From Arcticibacter tournemirensis (GTDB taxonomy: Bacteria; Bacteroidota; Bacteroidia; Sphingobacteriales; Sphingobacteriaceae), in NCBI RefSeq assembly GCF_006716645.1, contig NZ_VFPL01000001.1:1674001-1738000 (forward strand): a stretch of 64,000 nt of DNA, given 5' to 3'. Of the stretch, positions 54,733-55,856 are shown one piece after another; position 1 is the stretch's first letter, and each line of letters begins with the position of its first letter. The notes below the pieces were generated by a model. That model was not told the origin of the DNA. It ran no database searches and saw only the letters and a list, made by a program, of their open reading frames with translations. The position numbers and the translations under genes were made by a program.

Positions 54733-55044
54733 GGCTAAGGGTTTTGAGGTTAAACAACTAATTTCGTAGTTCTATAACGAGTTTTTTAGTTTAAAAGTAT
54801 AGGGGTTGTATTTCCGGGCAACCAACTTAATTCTAAAGACGTCTATGGGAGTTCACAAGACGTAAAAATCCACGAATAGGTACTGAGTTTTCTCAGTAGG
54901 ACGGCCCGATTTAGACGCCAGCCGAATGTCGTGATTGAAAAAATGTTAATAATAGAAGTTTTTCTCCGGTGAATATTTTAAGTATTATATTTTTACGGGA
55001 TATAATTAACGATATGGTAAAAATTAACTTTTTTATTTAAAATA
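54733..55044. other. Gene-free region upstream of the TPR gene and first tRNA-like unit
   Basis: AT-rich, with no open frame worth naming. It must contain the minus-strand promoter of the TPR gene. No clear hairpin or repeat was seen apart from the promoter of the tRNA-like unit that starts at its right end. Confidence 0.4.
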
Positions 55045-55076
55045 TTTGCAAAATATTGCCACTGCCTTTATCTTTG
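55045..55076 (+). promoter_or_regulatory. Bacteroidota-type promoter of first tRNA-like gene
   Basis: TTTG (55045-55048) and TATCTTTG (55069-55076, fits TAnnTTTG) separated by 20 bases, the housekeeping promoter pattern of Bacteroidota. The same two elements with the same spacing precede the second copy. Confidence 0.7.
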
Positions 55077-55110
55077 TATCAACAAGTTCTTTAAACGACA
55101 ACGTTAATAA

Positions 55111-55220
55111 TGTAGGGTGGTGAAACTGGCAGACACACCTCCTTGTCTCGGTGGCGGAGATTATGGGAAATCCGGAAACGGCCTAACCACTCCTTGAAGG
55201 TTCGACTCCTTCCCCTACAG
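55111..55220 (+). tRNA. tRNA-like RNA with Leu-type body and oversized variable arm, copy 1
   Basis: 110 nt fold as a tRNA: acceptor stem TGTAGGG/CCCTACA (7 pairs), G at the discriminator position, D arm GTG...CAC with the GG of the D loop, T arm GAAGG-TTCGACT-CCTTC. The D arm matches those of tRNA-Leu. The anticodon arm is poor: CCTCC/GGTGG has a T-T mismatch and its 7-nt loop TTGTCTC would give anticodon GTC with T at position 37. The variable region is about 41 nt, with outer GGAG/CTCC and a CCG-GAAA-CGG tetraloop hairpin, far beyond a normal class II tRNA. It may be a divergent tRNA or a tRNA-mimicking RNA; decoding identity is not assigned. Confidence 0.55.
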
Positions 55221-55290
55221 CTCCTTTCATATAATTTAGGTTTATAATTGGTTAGTTTGAGCTCTCGCCCATCGGGAGCTTTATTTTTTT
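55221..55290 (+). terminator. 3' trailer and terminator of tRNA-like copy 1
   Basis: A trailer of about 40 nt followed by the hairpin AGCTCTCG-CCCAT-CGGGAGCT (55260-55280) and TTATTTTTTT. The same trailer and hairpin follow copy 2. Confidence 0.8.
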
Positions 55291-55404
55291 CAAGCCTTTT
55301 ATTGCTTTATTCAAATATTGTAAATACTATCAAGGCGGGATAACGAAAATTTCCTTCATGTTTTATTTGCTCTGCAGCTGAAGATCATGAATATTAAAAC
55401 TGCT

Positions 55405-55430
55405 CAAAATAAAAAAGCCGGATTTCCGGC
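55405..55430 (-). terminator. Minus-strand terminator-like hairpin between the two tRNA-like units
   Basis: GCCGG-ATTT-CCGGC (55417-55430); on the minus strand it is followed by TTTTTTATTTTG. No gene is seen to its right on that strand before the second unit, so the transcript it would end is unknown. Confidence 0.45.
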
Positions 55431-55610
55431 GACCAGTACAGCTAACTTGGCGGAATAATTGAGACTAAAAAAAAGTGGTCGTTTGTATGCTAATTAAGCC
55501 GACACTGTTAAAGGCTTTTAATTAAGGATATATTTTAACAATGGGAAATACGTATGTTTTGTGGGTTTTTGTTGATATATTGATAAGTTTTAATATTTTT
55601 ATTTAAAATA

Positions 55611-55642
55611 TTTGCAATTTATATATTAAGGCATTATCTTTG
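55611..55642 (+). promoter_or_regulatory. Bacteroidota-type promoter of second tRNA-like gene
   Basis: TTTG (55611-55614) and TATCTTTG (55635-55642) with a 20-base spacer, identical in elements and spacing to the promoter of copy 1, though the spacer sequence differs. Confidence 0.7.
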
Positions 55643-55678
55643 TTTCATTAAGTTCTTAAAAAGACAGAATAACAATAC

Positions 55679-55786
55679 TGTAGGATGGTGGAACAGGCAA
55701 ACACACCTCCTTGTCTCGGTGGCGGAGATTATGGGAATCCGGAAACGGCTAACTACTCCCTGAAGGTTCGACTCCTTCTCCTACAG
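55679..55786 (+). tRNA. tRNA-like RNA with Leu-type body and oversized variable arm, copy 2
   Basis: 108 nt, about 90% identical to copy 1. The acceptor pair 7 changes from G-C to A-T on both sides (TGTAGGA/TCCTACA), a compensatory change that supports the fold. D-loop bases differ, while the whole central part (D stem 3' side through the start of the variable arm) is unchanged. The variable region is two bases shorter. T arm identical. This copy has the same promoter layout and terminator as copy 1, 568 bases upstream, so both look expressed. Confidence 0.55.
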
Positions 55787-55856
55787 CTCCTTTCATATAA
55801 TTTAGGTTTATAATTGGTTAGTTTGAGCTCTCGCCCATCGGGAGCTTATTTTTTTT
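55787..55856 (+). terminator. 3' trailer and terminator of tRNA-like copy 2
   Basis: Same trailer as copy 1 over about 60 bases, hairpin AGCTCTCG-CCCAT-CGGGAGCT (55826-55846) and a following run TTATTTTTTTT. Confidence 0.8.

Follow-up and report, generated by a model that had tools for sequence, protein, structure and literature searches.

A widespread tRNA-like RNA of Bacteroidota with aspartate identity bases and a possible role in tRNA-dependent asparagine synthesis

A 64,000-nucleotide stretch of the Arcticibacter tournemirensis genome (5.66 Mb), here called the window, contains two forward-strand transcription units for an RNA that resembles a tRNA, and the question raised by this locus is what purpose such an RNA could serve. 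The first-pass annotation of the sequence had described two units 568 bases apart with the same promoter elements, RNAs of 110 and 108 nt, an identical trailer of about 60 bases and the same terminator, and each of these features was borne out, the distance being counted from start to start. The predicted promoters, TTTG-N20-TATCTTTG, lie at 55045..55076 (copy 1) and 55611..55642 (copy 2) with a spacer of exactly 20 bases, and their elements are what we take to be of the Bacteroidota type. The RNAs are located at 55111..55220 (copy 1, from the U1-A72 acceptor pair to G73) and 55679..55786 (copy 2), and score 136 and 118.8 bits, respectively, with covariance model R1, to whose construction both sequences contributed. 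In the alignment, the anticodon loops fall at 55143..55149 (TTGTCTC, with GUC at 55145-55147, U37 and C38) and 55711..55717 (GUC at 55713-55715). The long variable arm of copy 1 (55156..55193) is composed of a GGAG/CTCC stem, an inner TGG/CCA helix and a CCG-GAAA-CGG hairpin. The pyrimidine at position 37 and the GAAA-capped hairpin noted earlier are present in the alignment, as is the exchange at acceptor pair 7, which is G-C in one copy and A-U in the other. The description of the acceptor as normal needs correction, as it starts with U1-A72. The first 61 bases 3′ of G73 are identical between the units, and these include a conserved trailer core (55238..55255, AGGTTTATAATTGGTTAG, and 55804..55821), which forms an independent module, and a terminator hairpin with a CCCAT loop followed by a T run (55259..55281), recognized from sequence and folding and identical in copy 2 (55825..55847).

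The two tRNA-like genes are confirmed as real. They are not the self-contained pair that they had seemed: BLAST places four full copies in the host genome, the other two at 103710 and 105441 of contig 1. The window copies have a TPR protein, a chemotaxis-like sensor and a deaminase as neighbours, none of which recurs next to other copies in a cluster of at least three loci; the 41 loci compared include the flanks of a minority of the other copies in the window's family. A AGTTCTTTAAA-like string is found in the leader at window positions 55081-55105 and at loci L051, L055, L069 and L075; it resembles the boxA of rRNA leaders, and suggests that these transcripts may be subject to antitermination.

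Beyond the host, a BLAST search with copy 2 returned matches in 19 of 41 genomes (host included), with up to seven per genome. Model R1 was built from an alignment of 39 copies (A1). At E <= 1e-12 it matched 213 of 300 genomes of the order, all from the window's family among the matches listed, and in the class-wide covariance search that the first-pass annotation had proposed for Bacteroidota, the RNA was found in 66 of 395 genomes belonging to 19 families. A 22-base core pattern, whose loci were taken without individual checking by R1, matched Pedobacter, Chitinophaga, Algoriphagus, Cyclobacterium, Echinicola, Marivirga and Saprospiraceae among the matches listed. The RNA family is widespread in Bacteroidota and apparently undescribed so far, keyword searches restricted to open-access papers having found no earlier description. 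Tandem arrays with short spacers, of five copies in one genome (G009) and three in another (G544), would be expected if the RNAs are cut out in the manner of tRNAs.

The cloverleaf, with its 7-bp acceptor and its D, anticodon and T arms, has covariation support from 70 distinct sequences (alignment A2). With the cloverleaf and variable-arm stems imposed, 97.2% of cells are paired and 271 two-sided changes are observed against 70 in shuffles, although the alignment was made to fit this structure and is biased in its favour, and its sequences are related; none of 500 shuffles reaches the observed value, and sliding the pairing partners abolishes the signal. Helices 4-6, which make up the variable arm, also covary. 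A MAFFT alignment of 39 close relatives gave 41 two-sided cells against 7, again above all shuffles; no two-sided change falls within the anticodon stem among these relatives, and only the wider set supports that arm by such changes. Single-sequence folding yielded ordinary energies (z about -0.6) and minimum-energy folds other than the cloverleaf, and RNAalifold, applied to the close relatives, does not recover the anticodon arm. Taken together, the presence of the RNA in 19 of 41 genomes by BLAST and covariation above all 500 shuffles make it more than a product of chance. The T-T mismatch reported in the anticodon stem is present in both window copies, but is not general: it characterizes the window's family, and 51 of 91 sequences are free of a mismatch there. 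In most members from other families every pair of this stem is formed; their variable arm, which reaches about 100 nt, often contains conserved GGATAAAC, GGGTTGACCAC and GCTAAC.

It had also been stated that assignment to a known RNA family or a common tRNA class would undo the claim of an unusual RNA, and no clear assignment of this kind emerged. Rfam matched no family in the window or at 20 sister loci, and ARAGORN called no tRNA or tmRNA in the window or at 28 loci. One of the four host copies does pass the Rfam tRNA model RF00005 in a genome-wide search (34.9 bits against a cut-off of 29), the same copy being unmatched in the 20-locus search. The host tRNA-Leu resembles the RNA in its D arm and overall type II shape, but scores 40-51 bits with R1, whereas the 73 aligned members collected after the model was built reach at least 68 bits and are distinguished by G73 and a loop that is mostly of the Asp type. 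Selenocysteine tRNA, allo-tRNA, tmRNA and Y RNA (YrlA) were rejected as identities on the basis of the 7/5 acceptor branch and the lack of Rfam and ARAGORN matches. A mimic of the anti-Shine-Dalgarno sequence was likewise rejected, as CACCTCCTT, which the window's family has in its anticodon arm, is not conserved in other families. Two further host loci on contig 1, L092 (1474515-1474773) and L093 (1405627-1405905), hold truncated or altered tRNA-like sequences, both with AGACTCATAATCT; the Rfam tRNA model gives them about 30 bits, and ARAGORN does not call them.

Staphylococcal cell-wall tRNA-Gly and the Bacillus tRNA-Other are non-decoding tRNAs, while allo-tRNAs are characterized by an 8/4 or 9/3 branch. 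The RNA shares with all of these a tRNA shape without ordinary decoding, but they have other identities and no known link to AsnC or GatCAB, and differ in branch from its 7/5 arrangement. Its own identity can be sought in the bases that it conserves. U1-A72, G2-C71 and G73 are invariant in 91 of 91 distinct sequences, whereas acceptor pairs 3-7 vary with compensation; this joint invariance suggests that the acceptor end is used chemically. G34-U35-C36 together with C38 are present in 85 of 90 complete loops, the other five lacking the full GUC/C38 set. As excerpted, the literature gives the bacterial Asp identity set as G73, G10, G34, U35, C36 and C38, and describes G1-C72 as the normal first pair of bacterial tRNA-Asp, where it aids positioning of the 3′ end (PMC9976931); U1-A72 is the pair recognized by bacterial GatCAB (PMC4206432, excerpt). 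G10 is the AspRS determinant that is poorly kept, in only 43 of 91 sequences. The features required for decoding fare differently. Position 37 is a pyrimidine in 85 of 90 loops, U33 is kept in 80 and lost in 10, and U33 with a purine at 37 occurs in 5 of 90, so the family fails as a set of decoding tRNAs; of the 43 tRNAs of the host genome, 42 have U33 and all have a purine at 37. The RNA thus joins most of the Asp set to an amidotransferase signal, and drops the needs of decoding.

Of the identities first suggested, the non-decoding tRNA mimic is the one that agrees with these data, given that the loop bases read by AspRS are kept, purine 37 (and in some lineages U33) is lost, and the variable arm exceeds the usual size. 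A recoded tRNA is less favoured; the host genome encodes a normal tRNA-Asp(GUC). As a class, tRNA-Asp(GUC) shares G73, G34-U35-C36, C38 and G2-C71 with the RNA, but has G1-C72 in place of U1-A72 and differs from it in position 37, the variable arm and G10. The wider notion of a translating tRNA, be it an unusual tRNA-Asp isoacceptor or a recoding one, could draw on the cloverleaf with its intact D and T arms, the GUC anticodon, the frequent U33 and the single host copy above the Rfam cut-off. Nevertheless, it is rendered highly improbable by the pyrimidine at 37 and the losses of U33 when set against the host tRNAs, by the tRNA-Asp already present, and by the rejection of the RNA by ARAGORN.

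The reading preferred here is that the RNA probably serves tRNA-dependent asparagine synthesis as a dedicated tRNA that does not decode, with AspRS as the charging enzyme and GatCAB as the amidotransferase. To our knowledge, tRNA-dependent amino-acid synthesis takes place only on tRNAs that also decode. The RNA would be transcribed and trimmed like a tRNA, AspRS would load aspartate by way of G34-U35-C36, C38, G73 and G2-C71, and GatCAB would recognize U1-A72 and convert the bound aspartate to asparagine. Asparagine on a tRNA with a GUC anticodon would enter proteins at aspartate codons, which would explain the non-decoding features: pyrimidine 37, the large variable arm and, in some lineages, the loss of U33 or a mismatched anticodon stem may keep the Asn-charged RNA off the ribosome. 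Asparagine would then leave the RNA by a release step. As a rough estimate, spontaneous hydrolysis of the Asn-RNA is too slow to feed all protein synthesis; release must therefore be catalysed if the RNA is to do so, and this step is missing from the scheme. The closest published counterpart is tRNA-dependent asparagine synthesis on tRNA-Asn by AspRS and GatCAB, described in Bdellovibrio, Deinococcus and Thermus in the excerpted account (PMC4206432). The proposal calls on the same enzymes and the same U1-A72 signal, in genomes that have GatCAB (as GatB), lack E. coli-type AsnB and mostly lack AsnA; the difference is that the published route uses a decoding tRNA-Asn and a non-discriminating AspRS, whereas here a separate RNA with an Asp anticodon should be accepted by an ordinary AspRS.

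The genes beside the RNA bear on this proposal. A divergent regulator of the Lrp/AsnC family, 154-178 aa in length, lies 92-441 bases upstream of the RNA in 22 of the 41 loci examined, which comprise the window and 40 others, some of them from one genome. This regulator scores 188 bits with the NCBIfam AsnC model (below its cut-off of 227), 81 with LrpA and 66 with Lrp. In the host genome, asnC (contig 1, 103095-103550) faces the RNA copy at 103710, such that the window pair look like secondary copies. Viewed from the regulator, the RNA adjoins 27 of 40 asnC loci, the host genome among them; two loci have a degenerate or mini form (L403, L412), nine are without the RNA, and at L384 and L392 the sequence ends too near the gene for the RNA to be judged. 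Among the nine, G041 and G021 show only a trailer-like module facing asnC. In G441, where the RNA was not found, asnC is divergent from an E. coli-type asnB (L425:944-3247), which occupies the usual place of the RNA. An AsnC-like gene of G458 (196 bits; L431:665-2816) adjoins rpoN, in a genome with AsnA in which neither the RNA nor GatB was found. In E. coli, asnC and asnA are arranged divergently. There AsnC activates asnA unless L-asparagine is present (PMC4482635, excerpt). The loci are alike in that an AsnC-type regulator adjoins a gene proposed to form asparagine, and differ in that the neighbour here is an RNA gene and control by AsnC is putative; through it, the regulator beside one copy might tune the RNA to the asparagine supply.

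A second line of evidence comes from gene content, for which GatCAB is counted throughout by its GatB subunit alone. The host genome has one GatB, no match to AsnA (PF03590) and no match to Asn_synthase PF00733 at E <= 1e-20; another genome, G025, similarly has no match to the asparagine synthetase A or B families. In a class sample of 159 genomes (28 RNA-positive and 131 RNA-negative by R1), GatB is present in all 28 genomes with the RNA and in 93 of the 131 without it (p 4e-4, the genomes being related). AsnA is present in 0 of the 28 RNA-positive genomes and at least one PF00733 protein in 26, mostly of about 590-680 aa where listed, and some of these proteins might make asparagine. Owing to this frequency of PF00733, E. 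coli-type AsnB was searched for directly in a chosen set of 80 related genomes picked by RNA status (48 positive, 32 negative; E <= 1e-60). All 48 RNA-positive members have GatB, none has E. coli-type AsnB, and two (G526 and G674) have AsnA. Of the 32 RNA-negative members, 17 have AsnB, 6 have AsnA and 12 have GatB, while 4 have no match to any of these proteins. The exclusion of AsnB has a Fisher p of 6e-9 overall and 4e-5 within the window's family, values uncorrected for the relatedness of the genomes and for their selection by RNA status. Within that family, 18 of 18 RNA-positive genomes of the set (13 genera) have GatB and neither AsnA nor E. coli-type AsnB, 12 of 12 AsnB-positive genomes are without both the RNA and GatB, and one genus (g37) contains both states, RNA with GatB in one and AsnB without either in the other. 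In G526, which has AsnA, the RNA loop reads CTCTCTC, and in G469, which has AsnB, the RNA is degenerate and its anticodon arm is gone; both cases agree with replacement of the RNA by a synthetase.

The family, structure and invariant bases of the RNA, its AsnC neighbourhood, the co-occurrence with GatB and the exclusion of E. coli-type AsnB are computed results, and the RNA bases and the gene co-occurrence constitute two separate lines that point to conversion of aspartate to asparagine. A stronger version, put forward tentatively, is that of a purely metabolic tRNA in place of asparagine synthetase, from which free asparagine would be released for AsnRS; gain of AsnB would make the RNA and GatCAB dispensable, and both would be lost together. 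A motif scan of the fetched DNA found one AsnRS, in G378, and no AspRS, and a wider scan of 39 host-genome stretches found LysRS only. G378 also has the RNA and GatB, three other PF00733 proteins, and neither AsnA nor E. coli-type AsnB; with AsnRS present, free asparagine would be needed there. Genomes of similar content are on record: the same excerpted account describes certain genera of Bacteroidetes that lack an Asn synthetase and possess AsnRS, GlnRS and GatCAB (PMC4206432).

The asparagine could also be made on the RNA as proposed and then be passed to another acceptor, whether protein, peptide or lipid. The evidence from the identity bases serves this reading equally. Non-decoding tRNAs with such roles are known, the staphylococcal tRNA-Gly being used in cell-wall synthesis, and so lend it precedent. 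It is nonetheless very unlikely, for no transferase recurs beside the RNA, each neighbour family other than AsnC being limited to at most 4 of 41 loci, and the exclusion by AsnB points to asparagine supply.

Several genomes depart from the pattern. G674 has AsnA together with RNA copies of the usual loop, and G663 has an RNA loop without GUC and neither AsnA nor E. coli-type AsnB was found in it. Nine of the 12 GatB-positive RNA-negative genomes have neither AsnA nor E. coli-type AsnB. In the window's family, an intact RNA is missing from five genomes with GatB (the copy in G017 is broken), and four genomes outside it have GatB alone. GatB is thus not dependent on the RNA, which some genomes do without. 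Counting against the preferred asparagine pathway are, accordingly, these 12 RNA-negative GatB genomes, the partial retention of G10, U1-A72 in place of G1-C72, the five deviant loops, AsnA in two of the 48 RNA-positive genomes, PF00733 proteins in 26 of 28, and mini forms of the RNA that have no anticodon arm.

These mini forms are associated with the trailer. The trailer module spans 55221-55290 and 55787-55856 in the window, and is found elsewhere at L153-L192. Its core, TTTAGGTTTATAATTGGTTAGT with at most two mismatches, occurs in 12 of 26 genomes (host included) against 0 for a reversed control, and stands 3′ of full RNAs, of mini tRNA-like forms, or directly of promoters. Some modules of G011 begin almost at +1 of the promoter, and G008, in which the tRNA-like RNA was not found, has 20 trailer copies. 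The terminator stems change by compensation, with the loop, CCCAT or CTCCCCG, mostly constant. At 20 trailer loci, Rfam gave no family above cut-off and two far-below-cut-off matches that were taken as chance. From these sequence comparisons, the trailer is best seen as a putative second, independent small RNA, sometimes made behind the tRNA-like part. A mobile element is disfavoured as an explanation, as promoters and heads differ and the stems change by compensation. At six trailer loci of G008 (L156, L160, L161, L164, L166 and L191), a promoter-like sequence, TTGTAACAAAACGGG...GCGTTATATAG, recurs ahead of the module and may serve an alternative sigma factor. Mini heads that retain the acceptor and T arm but have neither a normal D arm nor a normal anticodon arm, most of them found through the trailer module, precede the trailer at L094 (host contig 1, 655446-655530), L167, L171, L178, L181 and L184, and the mini head of G010 (L167, L412) faces asnC.

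Across much of the window's family the core of the trailer and the loop of its terminator are conserved; they are also found apart from the tRNA-like part, and the mini forms retain the acceptor and T arm. This is what would be expected if the tRNA top half were a mere handle, processed by RNase P and tRNase Z to free the 3′ trailer as a small RNA. However, outside the window's family only L223, L245 and L246 show a similar trailer, several copies inside it lack one, and trailer-less copies still keep the anticodon loop and the variable arm. As GUC/C38 and the link to GatB would also be left unexplained, there is little reason to credit this handle.

The main alternative to the preferred reading is a regulatory RNA in the same pathway. 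As a decoy or sensor, the AsnC-linked RNA would bind AspRS or GatCAB, charged or uncharged, and report or adjust the balance of Asp and Asn, with asparagine itself made on tRNA-Asn by a non-discriminating AspRS. The AsnC neighbourhood is compatible with such a role, as are the resemblance of the conserved, independent trailer to a small RNA and the host tRNA-Asn, which likewise reads as U1-A72; moreover, for genomes with a comparable gene content the published route is that of GatCAB and a non-discriminating AspRS acting on tRNA-Asn, as far as the excerpt goes (PMC4206432). Such a regulator is judged unlikely, as the joint invariance of U1-A72, G2-C71 and G73 suggests chemical use of the acceptor end, and the joint loss of the RNA and GatB in genomes with AsnB is easier to reconcile with a substrate than with a tuner.

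If the asparagine pathway is correct, the RNA would be a carrier split off for metabolism, and would show an amino acid being made on a dedicated RNA in present-day organisms. It would explain how asparagine is supplied in those Bacteroidota that have no recognizable asparagine synthetase, A. tournemirensis among them, and would provide a first function for an RNA gene that is present in 19 families of the class and has so far gone unannotated.
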